Origin: Bacteroidales bacterium
GTDB taxonomy: Bacteria > Bacteroidota > Bacteroidia > Bacteroidales > JAADJA01
DNA: 38,094 bases
Direction of reading: 5' to 3'
NCBI GenBank assembly: GCA_016933115.1
Contig: JAFGBL010000082.1
Location: forward strand, 1-38,094
Positions 1,244 to 11,111 of the stretch are shown piece after piece. The first letter of the stretch is position 1, and each line of letters begins with the position of its first letter. The notes below the pieces were generated by a model. It did not search any database and was not told where the DNA came from. It was given only the letters and a program-made list of their open reading frames with translations. The translations under genes were made by a program, and so were the position numbers.

Positions 1244-1399
1244 CTATTTAATAATCTCAAATTTTGTCTTCGGTTGATTGTTATCTGCTTTTTTCTGCTC
1301 TGCTAGCGAAGAACAACCGATAAGCCTTATCAACAGAAAAAGAACTGCTACATACAATAAAATTGAGATCGAAATTTTTATGGATACTTTCGCTTCCAT
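1244..1399 (-). CDS. Small membrane peptide or lipoprotein, 51 aa (unrecognised)
   Basis: A short minus-strand frame from ATG at 1399 to TAG at 1244. The product starts MEAKVSIKISIS, continues with a hydrophobic stretch (about residues 12-28, ILLYVAVLFLLIRLIG), reaches Cys29 in the context LIGCSS, and ends with a polar Lys-rich tail. This is the layout of a lipoprotein signal (LIGC as lipobox), although the single Arg inside the hydrophobic run and the short mature part also fit a one-pass membrane peptide. No family is recognised. It lies downstream of the response-regulator gene on the same strand. Its start codon is 47 bp from the 50-bp element at 1446-1495, much like the 36-bp spacing between the second copy of that element and the 113-aa gene frame ending at 10712. 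That shared geometry is the main argument that it is real. Confidence 0.45.
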   Translation of the reverse strand: MEAKVSIKISISILLYVAVLFLLIRLIGCSSLAEQKKADNNQPKTKFEIIK

Positions 1400-1534: not shown

Positions 1535-2173
1535 TTAATCGATAAGGTCATTCTCAACTGCCCACCTAACAAGGCCTGCCGTATTTTTTGCTCCGGCCTT
1601 GGCAAGTAAGTTGGCCCGATGACCTTCGACGGTATGGAAACTCACGATCAACTTTTCTGCGATTTCCTGGCTGGAAAATTCCTTACAGATCAAATTTAAA
1701 ATTTCCCGTTCACGTTCTGTCAATTTGGGGAATAGGGATTTTGTATTTTCGGCTTTCAATTCCTGGGTCACCAAAGATAATGATAAACGGTCGCTAAAAT
1801 ATTTCTCACCGGTAAATACTTTATTGATCGCCTGAATCAACTCATCTTTACTCGAATCTTTGAGCAAATATCCACGGGCTCCGTTCTTAATCATCCTTTT
1901 TACAAATCTTTTTTCACCAAACTGTGATAACGCAATGATCCGGACATTTGGAAATTTTCTGCTGACCATACGGGTACAATCCAGGCCATCAAGTTTGGGC
2001 ATGTTTATATCCATAAGAATAACATTGATGTCACTTCTATCATCAAGTATTTTCAAAACCTGGTAACCGTCATTGGCTTCAGCCGCAACTTTAATGTCCT
2101 GGCAATCTTCGAGGGTGGATCTAATTCCATCAATCATTAATTGATGGTCATCGGCTATAAGTAAGTTTATCAT
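1535..2173 (-). CDS. NarL/LuxR-family response regulator
   Basis: A two-domain transcription factor of 212 residues. The receiver domain has the acidic pair D8 D9, the phospho-acceptor D55 (ILMDINMP), the switch residue S83 and the conserved K105 (LLKDSS). The C-terminal GerE-type helix-turn-helix starts at LTEREREIL (about residue 150) and contains the recognition segment SFHTVEGHRANLLAK. Family knowledge says such proteins are phosphorylated by HisKA_3 kinases, dimerise and bind DNA. Three such kinases lie directly upstream on the same strand and no second regulator of this class is visible, so it is probably their common partner. It has its own candidate promoter at 2200-2231, so it may be made independently of the kinases. 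Its DNA targets are unknown; the 50-bp elements at 1446 and 11062 are candidates. Confidence 0.93.
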   Translation of the reverse strand: MINLLIADDHQLMIDGIRSTLEDCQDIKVAAEANDGYQVLKILDDRSDINVILMDINMPKLDGLDCTRMVSRKFPNVRIIALSQFGEKRFVKRMIKNGARGYLLKDSSKDELIQAINKVFTGEKYFSDRLSLSLVTQELKAENTKSLFPKLTEREREILNLICKEFSSQEIAEKLIVSFHTVEGHRANLLAKAGAKNTAGLVRWAVENDLID

Positions 2174-2199
2174 GATCTGATTTGGATTGGATTAATGTA

Positions 2200-2231
2200 C
2201 AAATTTACACATAATGCATTTTATTGTCAAT
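2200..2231 (-). promoter_or_regulatory. Candidate Bacteroidota-type promoter of the response regulator
   Basis: Read on the minus strand, TAAATTTG (2207-2200) matches TAnnTTTG exactly. ATTG (2231-2228) lies 20 bp upstream and matches three of four positions of the -33 element TTTG. The predicted transcript would start near 2193, leaving about 20 nt of leader before the ATG at 2173. Confidence 0.5.
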
Positions 2232-2262
2232 AAATAAAATTCAATAGCCAAATTTTTTTGAG

Positions 2263-4359
2263 TTATGTTTTCAACGGAATTTGAATAAAATACTTTACTC
2301 CTTGCAAAGGCTTTGATTCCAGGGTCATTTCTCCATCCAGGAACTTTACGCGCGACTCAATGCTGTTTAATCCCATAGATTTTTCTTTTATTATCTTATC
2401 AGGTTCAAATCCTTTTCCATCGTCCGAAAACTGCAAATTCAACCGATCTGGCTGAAAAGTTATATGGAGGGAAATATTATTTGCCGCTGCGTGTTTTAAG
2501 GTATTATTCAACATTTCCTGCACAATCCGGTAAAGCATTATTTCTGTATTTTCGGGTAATCTGATTTTATCACCGTCGATATTTACTTCTGCATTGGTTT
2601 TTTCTGTTTCATTTATTTGATCAAATAACTCCTCAATGGCTTCGAATAAACCGTATTTGCTGAGGAGACCCGGCATCATCTTGTGAGAGATTTTCCTGAC
2701 TTCGCCAGAAGCCAGTTCCAGCAATTTAGCTGCTTTTTCTATTATTGGTTTATTTTCAACGCTTGGATCATAAATATTTGTAAACTGCATGCGTGCAGTC
2801 GACAATAAAACGCCTAAACCATCGTGCAATTCTCGTGCGATACGTTTTCGTTCTACCTCCTGCCCTTCAACAATCAGGTGCGCAGCCAGTAATTTCTTTT
2901 CTTCTTCGAGTTGTATTATTTTTTGTTCTGCAATAATTTTATCCTTCCTGGCCTTGAGACGGACATATACAAGTGAGAAAGAAATGATCAGGCTAATGAC
3001 CAATCCAATTGCACTAGAAATATTCCTTTGATAAGTCCTTTTTTTCAAGCTCAGGTCCTTATTAAGATTTTCTTTTTCGAGCGCAAGTATCTGAGATTGC
3101 TTTTTTTCATTTTCATATTTCATTTCATACTCAGCAACGGCTTTTTGTATGTCAATTTTTAATAAAGAATCACTGAGTTGATGCTGCAAGGACTGATATT
3201 CAAATGATTTCTTATAATTTCCCTGTAATTCATAAATCTTATAAATATTATAATAAATGCTCTTTTTAAGATTTAAGTCCTTAATTTCATCAGCCAGTAT
3301 CAAGCAGGAGTCATTGATAACCAAAGCCCGGTTATAATCTTTTCGTTTTTCATAAATCAATGCTATATTTATCATATTGGTCAAAATCCCATTTTTCTGA
3401 CCGATCTCCCCGAAAATCTTTATTGCCTTATTATGAAATTCATAGGCTTTTGAATAATCCTGCTGCGCAAAATAGAAACCCCCGATATTATTATAAATAA
3501 ATCCAATTCCCGATTTGTTATGTACTTGTTCGTATATCTGAAGCGCTTTATTATAGTAGAATAATACTGAGTCATAATTTTTCTCATCATCTGCAATCAT
3601 TCCCAAATTGGTATAAGCCAGTGCTATATTCACCTGACTATTGAACCTTGAATTATAATCAATACTTTCCAGGAATTTTTGTTTTGCCTTATCATATTCA
3701 TTAAGCAAATAGTGAACTTGGCCAAGATTAATCAGATTAGGGCCAATTCCTTTTTCATCATCAATCTTTTTAAATAGTTTAATGCTTTCCAAATAATAAT
3801 ATGCGGCACTGTCATAAACTCCATTGAATTTGTAAAAAGTCCCAAATTGTGTGTATACTTTGGCTATTTGGGTGGAGTCATAAATTTCCTGGCTAAAATA
3901 CTTGCACTGCCTGTAGCATTGTATTGCGGAATCTGGAAATCCTTTATACTGATAAATTATTCCCAGGCTATAATATGAATACGCAATCAAGCTTTTATCC
4001 TTGATTGATTCGGATAAATTAAGTGATTTTTTGGCAAAGTATAAGGCACTATCCAAAGTTCCTATTCCCCTGTAAATTTTACTCTTTATATAGAAGGCTT
4101 TTGCAATGCCTTTGAGGTAATTCAAATTACCGGAAATACGTTCCGCTTCTTGCGTAATATAAATAGCTGTATCAGGTTTGTTTCGGTAGAATTTATCAGA
4201 AACGTCCAATAATGCACTCACTTTGAGAGTATCGTCCTTTTGTGCTAATAAACTATCAAGATTGGCAAAATGAGGCTCCTGACCATTGCTTATTTTATTT
4301 GCAATAAACAATGCAAATATAAAAAGCAAAATTAGGTATTGTAATTTGCTGCTAGCCAT
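2263..4359 (-). CDS. TPR-sensor histidine kinase 1 (HisKA_3/NarL class)
   Basis: A 698-residue membrane sensor kinase. Residues 1-27 form a signal or anchor (hydrophobic LQYLILLFIFALFIA). Residues about 45-400 are a series of TPR repeats predicted to be periplasmic, and 405-445 are probably coiled coil. One membrane segment lies near 447-467, followed by a second coiled coil. The dimerisation and phosphotransfer box is ERKRIARELHDGLG with H512. The HATPase domain shows the N box QEMLNNTLKHA (N618, N619), SDDGKGF (D646, D647) and MGLNSI. It should phosphorylate the regulator encoded 89 bp downstream. It is about five residues shorter before the active His than its two neighbours at 4888-6996 and 7423-9528, and its kinase core is a little more diverged. 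The signal is unknown. Confidence 0.92.
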   Translation of the reverse strand: MASSKLQYLILLFIFALFIANKISNGQEPHFANLDSLLAQKDDTLKVSALLDVSDKFYRNKPDTAIYITQEAERISGNLNYLKGIAKAFYIKSKIYRGIGTLDSALYFAKKSLNLSESIKDKSLIAYSYYSLGIIYQYKGFPDSAIQCYRQCKYFSQEIYDSTQIAKVYTQFGTFYKFNGVYDSAAYYYLESIKLFKKIDDEKGIGPNLINLGQVHYLLNEYDKAKQKFLESIDYNSRFNSQVNIALAYTNLGMIADDEKNYDSVLFYYNKALQIYEQVHNKSGIGFIYNNIGGFYFAQQDYSKAYEFHNKAIKIFGEIGQKNGILTNMINIALIYEKRKDYNRALVINDSCLILADEIKDLNLKKSIYYNIYKIYELQGNYKKSFEYQSLQHQLSDSLLKIDIQKAVAEYEMKYENEKKQSQILALEKENLNKDLSLKKRTYQRNISSAIGLVISLIISFSLVYVRLKARKDKIIAEQKIIQLEEEKKLLAAHLIVEGQEVERKRIARELHDGLGVLLSTARMQFTNIYDPSVENKPIIEKAAKLLELASGEVRKISHKMMPGLLSKYGLFEAIEELFDQINETEKTNAEVNIDGDKIRLPENTEIMLYRIVQEMLNNTLKHAAANNISLHITFQPDRLNLQFSDDGKGFEPDKIIKEKSMGLNSIESRVKFLDGEMTLESKPLQGVKYFIQIPLKT

Positions 4360-4381
4360 CAGAATTGTTTTTTGAAGTTTT

Positions 4382-4389
4382 CAAACATA
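4382..4389 (-). promoter_or_regulatory. Possible -7 box upstream of kinase 1
   Basis: TATGTTTG on the minus strand fits TAnnTTTG, 22 bp before the ATG at 4359. No TTTG-like -33 element is seen at the usual distance, so this is a weak call. Confidence 0.3.
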
Positions 4390-4502
4390 TTGATATTATT
4401 GTTTAGTAGGCTTTCTTTATTTTAAATAGCTTATTAAGCAATTATTTATAATTTACATCCTTTTTCATAAATCATAATATATCCTTGACCTTCAGCATGG
4501 AT

Positions 4503-4829
4503 TTAATCATGAATGGCTGAATTTGAATTTTTGATATTCTGGCCTCCCTCGACAACATCTCCAAGATGATTGTAAACCGTCACCAAAACCGCATGAAACA
4601 CCTCATCCCATGGTATTGGCAAACCATTTATTTTAGCCTCATAGCTGGCTTGATTTTGTCCTAGATCAGGAACCACTTTTAATACGACGTTGGTAAGTCG
4701 TCCGGATTTATCGGTTGAATTGTAATCCACCCTGATATTTTGATTTTGAGCTACGGTGACCGTGATATTTGCAAATAAATTTTCCAAAACACCGATCCTT
4801 AATTCTAATGCTGGTTGATAAAGTGCCAT
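4503..4829 (-). CDS. Small protein of unknown function, 108 aa, paired with kinase 1
   Basis: No family recognised. The product begins MALYQPALELRIGVLENLF and has no signal peptide or membrane segment. It alternates short hydrophobic strands (ITVTVAQ, LTNVVLKVVPDL, VFHAVLVTVYNHLGDVV), suggesting a small beta-rich fold, and ends in a polar Asn/Ser-rich tail. It is encoded 143 bp upstream of kinase 1 and 58 bp downstream of kinase 2, on the same strand. It therefore occupies the same slot as the 100-aa product ahead of kinase 2 and the 170-aa product ahead of kinase 3. The leader before its ATG is A-rich with no Shine-Dalgarno sequence. A role as cytoplasmic partner or target of the adjacent kinase is inference from position only. 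Confidence 0.75.
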   Translation of the reverse strand: MALYQPALELRIGVLENLFANITVTVAQNQNIRVDYNSTDKSGRLTNVVLKVVPDLGQNQASYEAKINGLPIPWDEVFHAVLVTVYNHLGDVVEGGQNIKNSNSAIHD

Positions 4830-4887
4830 AATTTTCCCTTTTTTAATTGGTTAACAATGATTTTGCTTTTAAGTAAAATTAAATTCT

Positions 4888-6996
4888 TCAGGTAACAGGA
4901 ACCACAAATGTGTACCTTACCCCTTTTCCAATAGATGATTGAACTTCAAGTTTACCAGCTAAAAACCTGACCCTGGACTGAATATTGGTTAGTCCGAATG
5001 ATTTTTGTTTTAATTTTTCCTCCATATCAAACCCTTTGCCATCGTCCATGTAATCAACTTTTAGCAGCTCAGGCTCTATTTCTATTTTAAGATGAATATT
5101 TTTGGCCTCCGCGTATTTCAAGGTATTGTTGACCATTTCCTGTATGATACGATAAATCATGATTTCTGTGTTTTCCCGCAGCCTTTTGGGTTCGCCCTTG
5201 ATTTCTGCTACTGCATGGATGTTTTCATTCTCATTAACTTGCTCCACCAATTCTTCTACGGCTTCAAAAAGGCCAAATTTGGTCAATAATCCTGGCATCA
5301 TATTGTGTGAAATCCGCCGTACATCTCCTGTAGCCAGTTCGAGTAACTCAGTCGCTCTTTCAATTATTCTTTGGTTTTCAGGTGATTTATCCCGTAGTGT
5401 TGTAAATTGCATTTTCACTGTTGATAAAAGCACGCCCAATCCATCGTGTAATTCCCTGGCAATGCGTTTACGCTCCTCTTCCTGTCCTTCCACTACCAAT
5501 TTGGCTGCCAGCAGTTTCTTTTCTTCCTCGAGTTGTTGTATTTTCTGAGATGCAATAATTTTATCTTTTCCAGCCCTGAGACGAATATTAACAAGTGAAA
5601 AAGTAATAATCAGAATGATCCCCAGTCCGGCGAACAAATAAATGTTTCTCTGAGTGGTTCTTCTCTGCAGAAAGAGATCTTTTTCGAGGTTATCATTTTC
5701 GAGGCTAAGTATTTGCGCCTGGTCCTTTTCCCTTTCATACCGAATCTCAAGTTCATTGATGACCTTAGCTTTTTCGATGTTAAATATAGAATCATTCAGC
5801 TTATGATATAATGTTTGATAGTAAAAGGCTTTATTCATATTATTATTCAATTCGTAAGTTTTGTAAATATTTTTATAAAGTTCCCTCATTCTATTTAAGG
5901 AATTCATTTCCTGAGCCATCTTTAAGCATGAATCATAAACCAGCAATGCCTTATCATAGTTTTTTCTTCTTTCAAATATTAACCCCTGGTTGATGAAGGC
6001 AGCCAAAAAACCATCATCATCTCCCAGTTCTTTGAACAACTTTTTCGCTTCAGAATATTGGTAATATGCCTTGTCGTATTGTTTTTCGGACAGATAGATA
6101 TGTCCGATATTGCTGTATAATATGGTTAATCCGTACTTGTTACCCAGTTCATTGTAAATTTCTTTAGCCTTTCTGAAATAATCCAAAGCCGTATCATTTT
6201 TTTTCTCTTCATATGCGATATTGCCTAAATTACTATAAGCAATCCCAATATACCTTTTATTATTCAGTTTCCGGTTAACCTCAATACTCTCAATCAAATA
6301 TTGTTTCGCACGTTCATAATCATACAGCAAATAATATGTACTTCCCAAATTTACAGTAGCTTTTCCCAAACCATCCCGATAACCCGTTCGCTCGGATAGC
6401 TTTATAAATTCATGAAAATAAAATATGGCAGAATCATATAACGGTTGCGCCAAATACACGGTTCCCAAGCCATTATACACATTGGCTATACCTAACGAAT
6501 CGGATAATTTTTGATATAAATCCAAACTTAACGTGTAGAAATTTTTACTTTTTTGAGGACCTTCAGTGCGGTAAAGTATGTTCCCCATTAAAAAATAATT
6601 GTCGGCAAGCCTTTTTAAATCGTTCACCGAATCGCTATGTTGGATGGCCCGCTGACAATAAAATGCAGCTGAATCAAATTTTCCCAGGTCTTTGTAAGCA
6701 AATCCGATATTGTTCAAAGCATCAATTTTTCCTTCCGGATAATCTATTTTCTTGGATAAATCCAATGCTGCTAAACCAATAACAAGGGATTCTCTGGGAT
6801 TGGTTCGTATCATTTCTTTCGAGAGCAACAAAAGAGAATTCACTCTATCAGGCCCCTCTTTTTTTCGTTCAACTTCCCTTTTCAAACTGTCCAAATCAGC
6901 AATAGCCTGACCAAATAAAAAGTCCAACTCAAATATGAATAGAATGAATGCGGCAAAAACAGTCCTAAAAATTAACGGTACTTGTTTCAATGTCAA
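4888..6996 (-). CDS. TPR-sensor histidine kinase 2 (HisKA_3/NarL class)
   Basis: A 702-residue sensor kinase with an N-terminal signal or anchor (about 8-29), periplasmic TPR repeats (about 50-400) and a coiled coil (about 405-447). One membrane segment follows at 451-472, then a cytoplasmic coiled coil, the HisKA_3 box RIARELHDGLG with H517, and a HATPase domain with QEMVNNTLKYA, MDDGKGFD and FGLTNI. It aligns with kinase 3 without gaps across at least the first 520 residues, including the position of the active His, so the two are direct paralogs. The kinase halves are nearly the same while the TPR halves differ at well over half of positions. It follows the 100-aa gene by 51 bp and precedes the 108-aa gene by 58 bp, consistent with one long transcript. 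Confidence 0.92.
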   Translation of the reverse strand: MTLKQVPLIFRTVFAAFILFIFELDFLFGQAIADLDSLKREVERKKEGPDRVNSLLLLSKEMIRTNPRESLVIGLAALDLSKKIDYPEGKIDALNNIGFAYKDLGKFDSAAFYCQRAIQHSDSVNDLKRLADNYFLMGNILYRTEGPQKSKNFYTLSLDLYQKLSDSLGIANVYNGLGTVYLAQPLYDSAIFYFHEFIKLSERTGYRDGLGKATVNLGSTYYLLYDYERAKQYLIESIEVNRKLNNKRYIGIAYSNLGNIAYEEKKNDTALDYFRKAKEIYNELGNKYGLTILYSNIGHIYLSEKQYDKAYYQYSEAKKLFKELGDDDGFLAAFINQGLIFERRKNYDKALLVYDSCLKMAQEMNSLNRMRELYKNIYKTYELNNNMNKAFYYQTLYHKLNDSIFNIEKAKVINELEIRYEREKDQAQILSLENDNLEKDLFLQRRTTQRNIYLFAGLGIILIITFSLVNIRLRAGKDKIIASQKIQQLEEEKKLLAAKLVVEGQEEERKRIARELHDGLGVLLSTVKMQFTTLRDKSPENQRIIERATELLELATGDVRRISHNMMPGLLTKFGLFEAVEELVEQVNENENIHAVAEIKGEPKRLRENTEIMIYRIIQEMVNNTLKYAEAKNIHLKIEIEPELLKVDYMDDGKGFDMEEKLKQKSFGLTNIQSRVRFLAGKLEVQSSIGKGVRYTFVVPVT

Positions 6997-7047
6997 GAGC
7001 GATTTATTAATTGATAAATTAATATTTCCGGTATGAAATTAATAAAA

Positions 7048-7350
7048 TCATTCCGCAATATCAATTTTTCGTGCCACATTCCCACCGGTAGTTTCTTCAT
7101 CCGAATTGATCTCAATCACCACTTTGTGATATTCACCATCCCAGCCAAGTGTGTGAGATGCCGGAAAAATATCTTCATCACTGTCATCATTAACTAAATA
7201 ATACCTGATGATTGACAGTTGGTTGCCCGAATTGTCCGTTGTCAGATATGAAATACTTTTATTGGCAGGAAGCAGGACTTCAAATGAAGAAATCAATTTG
7301 CTGCTTGAAACTTGCTTTAAACCTGACTGAATTTCATAATAATTTATCAT
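7048..7350 (-). CDS. Small protein of unknown function, 100 aa, paired with kinase 2
   Basis: No family recognised. The protein starts MINYYEIQSGLKQVSSSKLI, has no signal peptide, and reads as alternating beta strands (FEVLLPA, SISYLTT, LSIIRYYLV, YHKVVIEIN) joined by acidic loops (DDSDED, NSDEETTGG). It ends ARKIDIAE. It is strongly acidic. It shares no clear sequence with the 108-aa or 170-aa small proteins, yet occupies the same slot immediately upstream of a TPR kinase. Upstream of it, 72 bp separate it from kinase 3. Codon use and spacing look like those of its neighbours. Function unknown; partner or ligand of kinase 2 is inference. Confidence 0.72.
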   Translation of the reverse strand: MINYYEIQSGLKQVSSSKLISSFEVLLPANKSISYLTTDNSGNQLSIIRYYLVNDDSDEDIFPASHTLGWDGEYHKVVIEINSDEETTGGNVARKIDIAE

Positions 7351-7422
7351 GATACAAAAATTAGAGGTTTATAAAAAGATTACTGAAAATTTCATCTTTT
7401 TTATTTAGGTTATTGCTCATAG

Positions 7423-9528
7423 CTAACAAAGGATTTGAAATGTATACCTCACACCGGCACCAATGGATGTTTCCATTTCCAATTCTCCGCCTAAAAATTT
7501 CACTCTTGATTGAATACTTGTCAATCCAATAGATTTTGACTTGAGTTTTTCATTCAAATCGAAACCTTTACCGTCATCAGAATAGGAAAATTTCATTTTG
7601 TCCGTCGTCACATCAATGTCGAGAACAATATTCTTAGCTTCTGCATACTTCAGGGTATTGTTCACCATTTCCTGAACAATGCGGTAAAGCATGATCTCCG
7701 TATTCTCCGTAAGTCGTTTGTGTTCCCCGTGAATCTCAGTAACCGCATGAATACCTTCACTTTCATCAATCTGTTCAATCAAATCCTCAACAGCCTCAAA
7801 AAAGCCGAATTTGGTCAACAACCCAGGCATCATATTGTGAGAAATCCGCCTGACATCCCCTGAAGCCTGTTCAAGCAATTTGGTGGCCTTATCGATCATA
7901 CTTCGGTTTTGGGGTGAATTATCACGAAGCGTTGTAAATTGCATTTTGGCTGTAGACAAAAGTACACCCAACCCATCGTGCAATTCCCTGGCGATTCTTT
8001 TGCGCTCTTCTTCCTGTCCTTCAACAATTGCGCGGGCAGCCCAAAGTTTCTTCTCTTCTTCCAATTGTATAATCCGTTGTTCGGAGATTATCCTGTTTTT
8101 GTGGGTACGTTGGCGGTAATAGGCAAAAACGAAAATAAAAACAAGTATGGTACCGGATCCGGCGTAAACATAACGGTTTCTTTGTATGGTTCTTTGCCGG
8201 ATGGTATCTTTCATTACCAGTTTTTCATTCTCCAAACTTAGGATGTGGACTGAATCTTTCTCCTTTTCGTACTTTAATTGAAGATTAGCAATGAGCTCAG
8301 CCTTTTCAACACTCATAATACTATCTCTCAATAATTGATAATCCAATAGATATTTGAATGCATTTTCGAAATCCTTTTTCAACCAGTACGAATTATAAAT
8401 ATTAAATAAGAGCTCTACTCTCCTTTCATTCAGATTATATTTCTCTGCAATCAATAAGCATGAATCATAAATTTGTATTGAAGCTTCATAGTTGCCCCGT
8501 TTCTCATTGATTAAACCCTGATTTTTATATGCTATCAGGTAACCTTCAGTATTCCCGAGGCTGGAATAGGACTTTTTAGCTTCTTCATAAAATTGATAAG
8601 CTTTATCATATTCTCCTGTTTCGAGCAAAACATTACCCAACCCTATTTGTGCATTTACCAACCCCAACTGATGGTTGGTCCTTTTGCACAATTCCGAAGC
8701 TTTGGAATAAAAATTCCAGGCACTATCATATTCATGTTTATTGTACATAATATTACCCAGATTATCACATGCCGTACTCACAAAGATCAAATTATTCAAT
8801 TTTTCATTGATCTTAATACTCTCCTTAAAATAGTAAGACGCCCGTTGATAATCCTTCAATTCGTCATAAGCAAGACCCAGGTTTATGAATCCTTTTCCAA
8901 GTAACTCATCGATCTTCAACTTTTCACCAATTCTTATCAATTGTAAATAATAATAAATAGCCGAATCATATTTTGACTGTTTCATCAACATCACCCCGAT
9001 CCCATTCAATGAATTAGCTATTCCTATTGAATCGGCAATTTCTTTAAAAAGATTATAGCTTTTCAAATAATATTCATATCCCGGAGAGGATCCTTTTGTC
9101 CGATAGAGTAAATATCCATAATTTGAATAACCTTCTGCCAGTCGCTTTATATCCTTTGTAGAATCACTCAGTTGAATGGATTTATCGCAATAAATCTTTG
9201 CCGAATCATATTGACCCGACGTAATATAAATTCTGCCTTTTATTGATAAAGCATCGATCAATCCTGGCAAATTGTTCAACTTTTCTGATAAAAGTAACAA
9301 CTTATTGCTGTATGACAGGGCCAGGGAAGGATCATTTTGCATGTACCCCCGGCTCAATTCATAAAGGATTTTGAGTTTTAATGTGTCATCAGGTTGTGAA
9401 TCCAATTGCCGGGTAAGGCTGTCCAAATTTAATCCTGTTTGTCCGAAACAGCAATTTTGCATTTGGCAAAATAAAATGAAACAGGTTATTAAAATACCAT
9501 TCAGCCGGTAAATGTCAGCTCTTAACAT
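7423..9528 (-). CDS. TPR-sensor histidine kinase 3 (HisKA_3/NarL class)
   Basis: A 701-residue sensor kinase with the same plan as its neighbours: signal or anchor at about 9-29 (with CQMQNCC just before the likely cleavage region), TPR repeats about 50-400, coiled coil, membrane segment about 452-470, and H517 in RIARELHDGLG. The HATPase domain has QEMVNNTLKYA, SDDGKGFD and IGLTSI. The paired CC near residue 26 could be a lipobox, but the spacing is unclear. It ends in the short tail FQILC. It is the first kinase in transcription order, 73 bp after the 170-aa gene. The nearly identical kinase core, compared with kinase 2, suggests that both address the same response regulator at 1535-2173. 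Confidence 0.92.
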   Translation of the reverse strand: MLRADIYRLNGILITCFILFCQMQNCCFGQTGLNLDSLTRQLDSQPDDTLKLKILYELSRGYMQNDPSLALSYSNKLLLLSEKLNNLPGLIDALSIKGRIYITSGQYDSAKIYCDKSIQLSDSTKDIKRLAEGYSNYGYLLYRTKGSSPGYEYYLKSYNLFKEIADSIGIANSLNGIGVMLMKQSKYDSAIYYYLQLIRIGEKLKIDELLGKGFINLGLAYDELKDYQRASYYFKESIKINEKLNNLIFVSTACDNLGNIMYNKHEYDSAWNFYSKASELCKRTNHQLGLVNAQIGLGNVLLETGEYDKAYQFYEEAKKSYSSLGNTEGYLIAYKNQGLINEKRGNYEASIQIYDSCLLIAEKYNLNERRVELLFNIYNSYWLKKDFENAFKYLLDYQLLRDSIMSVEKAELIANLQLKYEKEKDSVHILSLENEKLVMKDTIRQRTIQRNRYVYAGSGTILVFIFVFAYYRQRTHKNRIISEQRIIQLEEEKKLWAARAIVEGQEEERKRIARELHDGLGVLLSTAKMQFTTLRDNSPQNRSMIDKATKLLEQASGDVRRISHNMMPGLLTKFGFFEAVEDLIEQIDESEGIHAVTEIHGEHKRLTENTEIMLYRIVQEMVNNTLKYAEAKNIVLDIDVTTDKMKFSYSDDGKGFDLNEKLKSKSIGLTSIQSRVKFLGGELEMETSIGAGVRYTFQILC

Positions 9529-9601
9529 CCAGATAGCATTTTGGAAACAACGATAATTGTATTAAATGCACCTCCCCAATTATACAGGTTAATAAGTGCC
9601 T

Positions 9602-10114
9602 CTATTTTACTTTTTCCAGATTTTCTTCATAATGAATGAACAGGTCCTCAATCAAACTGATTTCAGCTACCTTCTCACATGGTGTTATATTCACGTTTAC
9701 ACTGTGAAATGTACCAGGTAATTGAAAACTAAAATCTTGAGTTTGAGAAGGCCTGCCAATGGCTGGCATTACACACAAATTAAAAGTTGTTATTTGATAA
9801 TCAAGTTTACGCCAATCATTTCCATAATTATCTTTCACTTGCATAAGAAATTTTTCTTTCTCCTCTTTTTGTTTAACTGGATCATTTGGGAATTTTGTCC
9901 GTATATCCTTATATATTTCTTTTACCGGTCTATTGCCAGCAGGGGTCAATTTAATTTCCGGAGTAGTTGAAACATCCCTTAATACTACAAGATTATCTTC
10001 GGGGACTTTTATATAAAGAAACAAGGTAGTTCTGTCATATTGTTTTTCATGTAGTACTTTCAACATGACATTACCAATAATTTCAAAACCTTCTTTTGAT
10101 TTCATTTTGGCCAT
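9602..10114 (-). CDS. Protein of unknown function, 170 aa, paired with kinase 3
   Basis: No family recognised. It starts MAKMKSKEGFEIIGNVMLKV, has no signal peptide, and contains beta-like strands (TTLFLYIKVP, NLVVLRDV, LDYQITTFNLCVM, FHSVNVNITP) around a charged helical middle (residues about 85-112, with VKEIYKDIR and KEEKEKFLMQ). The first 40 residues resemble the start of the 115-aa protein encoded just upstream: a Gly-x-Val-x-Leu strand, a polar turn and then an LYI or IYI strand ending near Pro. The two also share a leader sequence. Both may descend from one ancestral gene, but this rests on reading by eye. It is the small gene immediately before kinase 3. Confidence 0.75.
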   Translation of the reverse strand: MAKMKSKEGFEIIGNVMLKVLHEKQYDRTTLFLYIKVPEDNLVVLRDVSTTPEIKLTPAGNRPVKEIYKDIRTKFPNDPVKQKEEKEKFLMQVKDNYGNDWRKLDYQITTFNLCVMPAIGRPSQTQDFSFQLPGTFHSVNVNITPCEKVAEISLIEDLFIHYEENLEKVK

Positions 10115-10143
10115 GACTTTAAATTTTTTTGGTTTTAGTTAAT
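10115..10143 (-). repeat. Leader shared with the 115-aa gene, copy 1
   Basis: Read on the minus strand, the bases before the ATG are TTAACTAAAAC, a 7-8 nt A-rich insert, then TTAAAGTC and ATG. The leader at 10567-10585 has the same two blocks without the insert. Neither contains a Shine-Dalgarno sequence, so the shared blocks may act in translation or regulation, or may mark duplication. Confidence 0.6.
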
Positions 10144-10218
10144 CTGCTTAAAAAACTGAATTTTTTGTTAAATGATTTCGGGATCATTAAATTTACAACG
10201 AAATCCCTCACAAAATTT

Positions 10219-10566
10219 TTATAAAGCTTCGGTTCTAGCTTGAGATACAGTACCTCCTGGTGGTGGTGGTGGAACAGTATACTCAGCCAATACCTCTTTT
10301 GGTGGAGCCTCAGGAATAGTGTACGCAAAATATTCGGTGTGTGAAAATGGAATTGTACCATTTACTTCATCATAGGCATAAATATAATCTATATCTTCCT
10401 GAATTAATTTTGGCATTTTAAGTTCATTTAATATGGCTTTTTTACCTCCGGGTATGTTGTGAATATATATGGCAACATCCACTGATTGCCCACCTTGCAT
10501 CCAGAACAGGTACAACTCTACCTTTCCATCGATGGAACAATCATAAGCCTTCATTAATAATCCCAT
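10219..10566 (-). CDS. Protein of unknown function, 115 aa, with Pro-rich tail
   Basis: No family recognised. The N-terminal part (about residues 5-45) reads as beta strands (KVELYLFWMQ, SVDVAIYIHNIPGG), a central part is helical or mixed (AILNELKMPKLIQEDIDYIYAYDEV), and the end is a low-complexity Pro-rich tail (PEAPPKEVLAEY, then VPPPPPGG). There is no signal peptide. The first ATG (10566) is used here because the conserved leader abuts it; an alternative start at Met5 would shorten the protein by four residues. It lies between the 113-aa and 170-aa genes on the same strand, with 104-145 bp gaps. The Pro-rich tail would suit a flexible linker or a protein-binding segment. Confidence 0.7.
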   Translation of the reverse strand: MGLLMKAYDCSIDGKVELYLFWMQGGQSVDVAIYIHNIPGGKKAILNELKMPKLIQEDIDYIYAYDEVNGTIPFSHTEYFAYTIPEAPPKEVLAEYTVPPPPPGGTVSQARTEAL

Positions 10567-10585
10567 GACTTTAAGTTTTAGTTAA
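10567..10585 (-). repeat. Leader shared with the 170-aa gene, copy 2
   Basis: On the minus strand this reads TTAACTAAAAC directly followed by TTAAAGTC and the ATG at 10566. The two blocks match the leader at 10115-10143, where an A-rich insert separates them. Confidence 0.6.
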
Positions 10586-10711
10586 ACATTTATTTGATTT
10601 CGGCAAACTTTGCATCTAAGATACAACTATTTTATATATCATGTCAAATGTTATATATCTACATATAGACATTTTTAACTCACCATTCGGAACCTGTTTC
10701 CCTCAAAGACT

Positions 10712-11026
10712 TTATATCAACTCTATATCGGAGTTCTCTGCGGCATTGATTTTCACCCCTTTCACCCAATCGGGCATGGACTTCACCCTGAAAACTACAT
10801 CTACCTCCAATTCCACATTGGTATAATCTTCTCCGGTATTATCCAAAATAAAATCGAGTTCATAAATTCCATCTCCCGGGGGTTTTTCGTATTCCCTTGG
10901 GATGAGGATCGGAGCGATCAATTTTTTCAATTCGGCTATTCCTTTGGCTTTAATAGCCATCAAATCAGGCTCTGCATTTTCCTTTATTATCCGAATATCC
11001 TTTACAAAGCGTATTTTGTTTTCCAT
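10712..11026 (-). CDS. Protein of unknown function, 104 aa, first gene of the signalling island
   Basis: No family recognised with confidence. The start at Met 11026 (MENKIRFVKDIRIIK) is preferred over an in-frame Met nine codons earlier, because the extension (KFAIILHT) lacks any start signal and would run closer to the 50-bp element. The product has an N-terminal basic strand, a helix (LMAIKAKGIAELKKLIAPIL), the turn PPGDGIYELDFIL and a strand pair ELEVDVVFRV before WVKGVKI. The helix followed by paired strands loosely recalls the small Trypco-type domains found beside conflict and signalling genes, but no diagnostic motif is seen. It is the first gene in transcription order, 36 bp downstream (minus sense) of copy B of the 50-bp element, so that element may control the whole array. 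Confidence 0.72.
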   Translation of the reverse strand: MENKIRFVKDIRIIKENAEPDLMAIKAKGIAELKKLIAPILIPREYEKPPGDGIYELDFILDNTGEDYTNVELEVDVVFRVKSMPDWVKGVKINAAENSDIELI

Positions 11027-11061: not shown

Positions 11062-11111
11062 ATAGCAGAAAACCACTGGAAAAAAAAATGGCAGAAAACC
11101 ACTGGTTTTTT
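11062..11111. repeat. 50-bp element, copy B: two 18-bp direct units plus T-run
   Basis: Units at 11062-11079 (ATAGCAGAAAACCACTGG, one mismatch) and 11088-11105 (ATGGCAGAAAACCACTGG), again 26 bp apart with an A-only spacer and a T6 run at 11106-11111. Only two of the 50 positions differ from copy A at 1446-1495, and both copies have the same orientation. It lies between the divergent 104-aa gene (minus) and the methyltransferase gene (plus). On the minus strand TATATTTC, close to the -7 consensus, overlaps the end of the first unit. Confidence 0.85.

Follow-up and report, generated by a model that had tools for sequence, protein, structure and literature searches.

A candidate Bacteroidales signalling cassette that pairs small proteins with TPR sensor kinases beside a NarL-type regulator

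Why does a bacterial locus place a small gene directly before each of three sensor kinase genes, and a single response regulator gene at its end? We address this question in the window, by which we mean the whole 38,094-nucleotide stretch of Bacteroidales DNA that was analysed. Read 5′ to 3′ on the minus strand, the genes are s104 (10712-11026; 104 aa, no domain match), s115 (10219-10566; 115 aa), s170 (9602-10114; 170 aa), kinase 3 (7423-9528), s100 (7048-7350; 100 aa), kinase 2 (4888-6996; TTG start), s108 (4503-4829; 108 aa), kinase 1 (2263-4359) and a NarL/LuxR-type response regulator (1535-2173), the sole regulator gene of the locus. The partner position, immediately 5′ of a kinase gene, is taken by s170, s100 and s108 for kinases 3, 2 and 1, respectively. 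The first-pass annotation gave the same order and sizes, which agree with the ORF list, but its nine ORFs left out a 51-aa ORF with one predicted transmembrane (TM) helix and no Pfam match that lies 3′ of the regulator (1244-1399, minus strand). Gaps between the genes measure 51-145 bp, and from this layout the genes could plausibly form one operon; scans of the window for promoters (49 versus 42 in shuffled sequence) and terminators (7 versus 6) gave no real excess.

The three kinases share an architecture in which an N-terminal signal or TM segment, a TPR region and a further TM segment precede the HisKA_3 and HATPase_c domains, with the TPR repeats and both catalytic domains recognized by Pfam. 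Hydropathy places the N-terminal segment of kinases 1 and 2 on one side of the TPR region and a single TM segment near residue 450 on the other; the TM segments of kinase 3 fall below the TM threshold used, and their placement is by eye only. We infer that the TPR regions face the periplasm, as do those of the kinase FimS (PMC11053733). The catalytic motifs had been called near-identical, and indeed the H-box ERKRIARELHD is present in all three kinases. Pairwise identity is 62-72% for the kinase cores and 33-40% for the TPR regions. The regulator combines a receiver domain (Response_reg) with a GerE domain and retains the phospho-acceptor Asp and a conserved Lys, so that, together with the catalytic motifs of the kinases, the parts of a two-component system are present. 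Six other NarL-type regulators are encoded in the genome, all on other contigs and 32-43% identical to the window regulator; exclusive convergence of the three kinases on the latter therefore stays a proposal, as does the many-to-one hub suggested by the first-pass annotation.

All five small proteins lack an accepted match in Pfam, NCBIfam, PHROGs and PADLOC, the last of which was scanned for anti-phage defence, and a PDB sequence search returned nothing. The earlier observation that they share little sequence is correct for pairwise identity (19-26%) but overlooks a fast-evolving family, here called smallX, that includes both s100 and s108: a held-out profile, built from relatives without s100 and s108, detects them at E values of 1.7e-13 and 9.3e-8 (Z=10,000). 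Partners from other families are also picked up by the smallX profile, L078 and L084 at E of about 1e-5 and others more weakly, and BLAST aligns s108 with the small protein of L034 (31% identity, E 2e-13). None of s170, s115 and s104 is detected by the profile, and no kinship of s115 or s170 with smallX or with s104 could be demonstrated. Relatives of s115 occur only in loci L037 and L052 of the same genus, adjoining s170 each time; the two genes thus travel together, before kinase 3, before the L037 kinase and in L052. For s170, L037 has a weak relative (E about 1e-3) and L052 another, and a search for loci related to s170 found none. By its alignment, s104 is a second, conserved family distinct from smallX, with 17 relatives at 50-85% identity and an invariant NSDIE near the C-terminal end.

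AlphaFold2, given 18 sequences, models s100 as a seven-stranded Ig-like beta sandwich (mean pLDDT 86.4, pTM 0.76). Foldseek found no match to this model at E≤0.001, and the best VIA-align Z was 5.9, with Ig-like domains in the top rows (Z 5-6). These rows reflect a common Ig-like arrangement, and no solved structure stood out as a relative of smallX. The AlphaFold2 model of s104 is all-beta, at low confidence (pLDDT 59). Neither the small proteins nor s104 contain a predicted TM segment, and no signal peptide was seen by eye. A common C-terminal tail of s104 (NSDIELI) and the partners was also considered and rejected, as profile-profile comparison gave a probability of 0.3% and no match; the best s104-tail window is C-terminal in 8 out of 29 small proteins, against 2 expected, and these are mainly related sequences from outside the genus, with none from the window.

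The small-gene pairing is a property of one kinase clade and goes beyond chance. Every clade kinase whose upstream DNA could be read (27 of 27, counting only kinases with room upstream) has an ORF of 100-179 aa directly 5′ of it; three of these kinases are in the window, and the other 24 are spread over 20 other genomes or MAGs. The next-best related kinases outside the clade (n=7, 28-32% identical) have no convincing small ORF upstream; one is preceded by a doubtful 85-aa ORF with a TTG start and no resemblance, which was not counted as a gene. In a maximum-likelihood tree built from 38 kinases (26 with a small gene, five with unreadable upstream DNA and the seven from outside the clade), one branch, with support of 98/93, separates the seven kinases without a small gene from the other 31. 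The label "no small gene" changes once in 97% of bootstrap trees, and no shuffle out of 500 gave a number as low. The claim that every kinase directly follows a small gene thus extends from the window to all readable kinases of the clade, against no convincing case among the seven kinases outside it. The first-pass annotation had named two patterns that would mark the pairing as accidental, namely small-protein homologs away from TPR kinases and homologous kinases without small genes; neither check refuted it. Every copy of the 100/108-aa family with flanks that could be read directly precedes a TPR kinase, and kinases lacking the small gene number 0 of 27 in the clade, with the seven outside it lying across one tree branch. 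Across 295 sampled genomes of the order, smallX (the 100/108-aa family) turned up only in this genus. A phylum-wide sample of 394 other genomes, which holds few close relatives and was scored for the best two kinase candidates per genome, yielded no clade kinase (E≤1e-85) and no s104.

Comparison with other loci shows that the basic cassette consists of s104, a small protein, a TPR kinase and a NarL regulator, and that it occurs in several uncultured Bacteroidales families. Most of the 16 congeners of the window genome have a TPR kinase close to kinase 2 that lies, as in the window, between rpsF-rpsR-rplI and a SpoU-type methylase gene, with one small gene directly 5′ of the kinase and the regulator 3′. 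The alternating array described for the window is therefore real but is not the basic form, since a single kinase is the rule in most relatives of the locus. Larger versions are L034/L075 (genome G007), in which two kinases and two small genes accompany one regulator, and L013 (G001), which is cut by contig ends and has at least two kinases and at least two small genes 5′ of one regulator; all multi-kinase arrays, that of the window included, have a single regulator gene. The idea that each kinase has its own small gene holds for all clade kinases that could be read and needs amending in two respects: s104 is a separate family, and kinase 3 has two small genes upstream (s115 and s170).

Beyond the genus, the cassette is found in at least four other families, namely f47, f73 and f102, and f32 with no s104 in view. 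Within the 295 genomes sampled from the order, s104 occurs outside its own family in f47, f73 and f102, and a scan of named-genome contigs for s104 gave 17 good loci, all from MAGs and nearly all labelled Bacteroidales or Bacteroidetes, with one "Chlorobiota"; L090, a weak match inside a 600-aa protein, was left out. Where the flanks can be read, the genes that come after s104 are a small ORF and a TPR kinase; the regulator lies either 5′ or 3′ of them. Three genomes carry a second cassette elsewhere (L041, L048 and L049) in the order regulator, small gene, kinase. The f32 locus L109 likewise reads regulator, 126-aa ORF, kinase; in L106, a second f47 locus, the small ORF overlaps the kinase start, and in L079 two small ORFs lie 5′ of the kinase. 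The partner-position ORFs of L106 (3599-4132) and L109 (3577-3957) resemble none of the other partners and are missed by the smallX profiles, and further partner families may exist. At least two unrelated-looking families (s170 type, L106, L109), and probably more, hold the partner position.

The kinase tree also bears on the origin of the array. Kinase 3 is sister to the L037 kinase (support 100/98), likewise preceded by an s115-s170 pair, and kinases 2 and 3 form a group with a kinase of another family (support 95/97). Because the window kinases are not mutual nearest relatives, the array did not arise by recent tandem duplication in this species; both an old array with subsequent losses and an exchange of units fit the tree.

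The components of the cassette evolve at two distinct rates. Over ten loci (45 locus pairs), mean identity is 59% for s104 and 62% for the kinase core, and 23% for the small partner and 28% for the TPR region; the regulator averages 64% (28 pairs). One class thus comprises s104, kinase core and regulator (59-64%) and the other the small partner and the TPR sensor (23-28%). Between close pairs, dN/dS is 0.32-0.41 for the partner, 0.38 for the TPR region, 0.13-0.24 for s104, 0.09-0.16 for the regulator and 0.12 for the kinase core; the values for partner and s104 are well below 1, which identifies them as real coding genes under purifying selection. The split in rates is expected if the specificity of each unit lies in the partner and the TPR region and the rest is shared machinery, and it suggests that the small protein helps to define the input of each kinase. 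Rapid divergence is common in sensor regions and small proteins, however, so the rate classes fall short of proof. A distance-matrix (mirror-tree) comparison of the partner with TPR region and kinase core gave, for the TPR region, r 0.27 (p 0.02) over all 25 pairs, which dropped to r 0.04 once five atypical pairs were removed and was r -0.31 within the genus. As the correlation is lost without the atypical pairs, we do not use it as evidence.

Among known systems, the closest in layout is comQXPA of Bacillus, which likewise has four adjacent genes on one strand, encoding a helper, a small protein that varies, a HisKA_3 kinase and a GerE-type regulator (PMC4008528). ComP carries PF07730 and PF02518 (PMC4008528), and a kinase with both domains lies next to a GerE regulator on one strand in the window. 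The ligand and the receptor input vary in comQXPA and ComA varies least (PMC4008528); the window cassette similarly has a variable input side and a conserved output side. Despite these similarities, the cassette has no ComQ-type isoprenyl transferase (PF00348), s104 being without a Pfam match, none of its small proteins matches the ComX prepeptide (PF05952), and s100, s108, s115 and s170 have no Trp in their last ten residues. Its sensor is a TPR region rather than a multi-TM domain, and up to three kinases accompany one regulator. With ComQ and ComX absent, the window cassette is not a member of the comQXPA group.

The closest sensor is that of FimS-FimR in Porphyromonas gingivalis, also Bacteroidales, a TPR kinase whose periplasmic TPRs lie between two TM segments and which is paired with a response regulator (PMC11053733). 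The NCBIfam FimS model, however, gives the window kinases 86-93 bits against a cut-off of 600; FimS is a single kinase, and the accessible text mentions no small partner gene or s104 (PMC11053733). Several kinases acting on one regulator, as proposed for the window, are known from the GacS multikinase network of Pseudomonas (PMC5992135); that network consists of hybrid kinases scattered in the genome and acting partly on each other, whereas the cassette here is an operon-like array with partner genes and no receiver-bearing kinases. Tuning of a sensor kinase by a small protein, again proposed for the window, has precedents in MgrB, ScrA and other auxiliaries (PMC8534201; PMC12239555). The auxiliaries named are membrane proteins and are not encoded one per kinase in arrays; the window partners are predicted to be soluble and Ig-like. 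The open-licence literature searched contained no description of such a cassette, in line with the earlier claim that no system with this layout has been described, and the signalling cassette looks previously undescribed.

With roughly even confidence, we propose that s104, partner, TPR kinase and NarL regulator form a self-contained signalling cassette in which partner and TPR region set the input. The window would hold an expanded version, with three partner/kinase units sharing s104 and one regulator. The kinases would sense through their periplasmic TPR regions, each small protein would act on the kinase encoded next, as a dedicated protein input or by modulating the input, and the three kinases, with their near-identical phosphotransfer helices, would all phosphorylate the single adjacent regulator; partner and TPR region would decide the response of a unit, and s104, kinase core and regulator would be common machinery. 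Points that weigh against this proposal are the lack of export signals in the small proteins, the failure of partner and TPR distances to covary, the sub-threshold TM segments of kinase 3 and the variety of families in the partner position. It is hardly credible that the layout is due to chance or to false ORFs: only the small size of the genes and the lack of database matches favour this reading, and it conflicts with conservation across families and with dN/dS well below 1. For s104 and smallX it is refuted; s115 and s170 rest on three genomes. Very unlikely, too, is that the small genes are hitch-hikers or regulator targets linked to the kinases by operon inheritance only. Vertical inheritance at the conserved rplI/SpoU methylase site can keep such linkage within the genus, but other families retain the linkage at different genomic sites, second copies within the same genomes (L041, L048, L049) retain it too, and each additional kinase comes with its own small gene.

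Where the small protein acts is a separate matter. Because of the rate classes we lean slightly towards the TPR/input side, a tentative placement that we hold a little short of even confidence; a cytoplasmic modulator of the kinase is somewhat less probable, and other roles take up the remainder. Since the small proteins and s104 have neither signal peptide nor TM segment and the TPR regions are predicted to be periplasmic, direct contact would need an export route; partner and s104 look cytoplasmic and would either act on the cytoplasmic side or be exported into the periplasm. The small proteins could instead work in the cytoplasm and inhibit, activate or scaffold the cytoplasmic part of the kinase or the regulator, similar to Sda/KipI or MzrA and away from the TPR region. 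This rather unlikely alternative agrees with the finding that neither the small proteins nor s104 carry an export signal, and with known examples of accessory proteins whose site of action is the DHp or the catalytic domain (PMC8534201), but kinase core and regulator are conserved (62-64%) and the partners are at 23%, although a partner specific for the core should be under tighter constraint. We consider unlikely a pherotype-like cassette, in which the small protein, whole or in part, would be released and recognized by the TPR region of the cognate kinase, s104 would assist in its production or export, and several such pairs would feed one regulator. Gene order and rate pattern recall comQXPA (PMC4008528), and the FimS TPR region is proposed to bind a polypeptide (PMC11053733). 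However, the partner is a folded domain of 100-150 aa without a leader, the cassette includes no exporter, protease or modifying enzyme, and partner and TPR region do not covary. We regard as quite unlikely the specific version in which Gram-negative cells use each Ig-like protein as cognate ligand of the next TPR kinase, with s104 as helper and arrays feeding one regulator; if the ligand reading were true, cells would read which variants surround them.

The confirmed layout and the conserved pairing make the locus a candidate signalling cassette. To our knowledge, TPR sensor kinases are common in Bacteroidota and the inputs that they sense are mostly unknown. A clade that ties each TPR kinase to one small gene offers a concrete input candidate, and its one-kinase and several-kinase versions are natural comparisons for the merging of signals on one regulator. 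For FimS, the signal is still unknown (PMC11053733).

Direct repeats of 50 bp, identical to each other, bracket the window locus, one at its distal end (1446-1495) and one just 5′ of s104 (11062-11111). Their 17-bp core, TGGCAGAAAACCACTGG, has 13 genome copies at ≤2 mismatches, versus none in the reversed control; apart from the window, copies lie on G000 contigs C91, C107, C169, C212, C219 and C255. All copies carrying the core begin like CATGGCAGAAAACCAC, and the core is partly arranged as a hairpin, GAAAACCAC...GTGGTTTTC. Because the core also occurs at other intergenic sites, partly as hairpins, a dispersed repeat explains them sufficiently, and the readings as transposon ends or regulator sites were not adopted; the repeats may be dispersed intergenic elements or binding sites of the regulator, and the copy 5′ of s104 possibly a promoter-side element.

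Additional small genes flank the cassette. An ORF of 51-73 aa with one TM helix lies 3′ of the regulator in most loci of the genus (for example L083 14368-14589, L082 13992-14159 and L087 5590-5763) and is possibly part of the cassette; the likeness of the 51-aa window ORF to the TM ORFs of related loci (55-73 aa) was judged by eye (...ILLYVAVLFLLIRLI... versus ...YILLYIVVMILLIKLI...). In three families, a secreted protein of about 100 aa is encoded opposite the regulator (L075 16661-16966, L077 9198-9500, L080 9283-9585 and L107 2535-2867, all on the minus strand). It has no Pfam match, evolves fast (dN/dS 0.80 for L077 versus L080) and is a possible regulator target. Both f47 genomes encode a secreted protein with the common stretch CPDCD/CPFCD ... 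DADVHI (L085 15640-16947, this copy without a Pfam match, and L089 12631-13053), one or two genes 3′ of the kinase.
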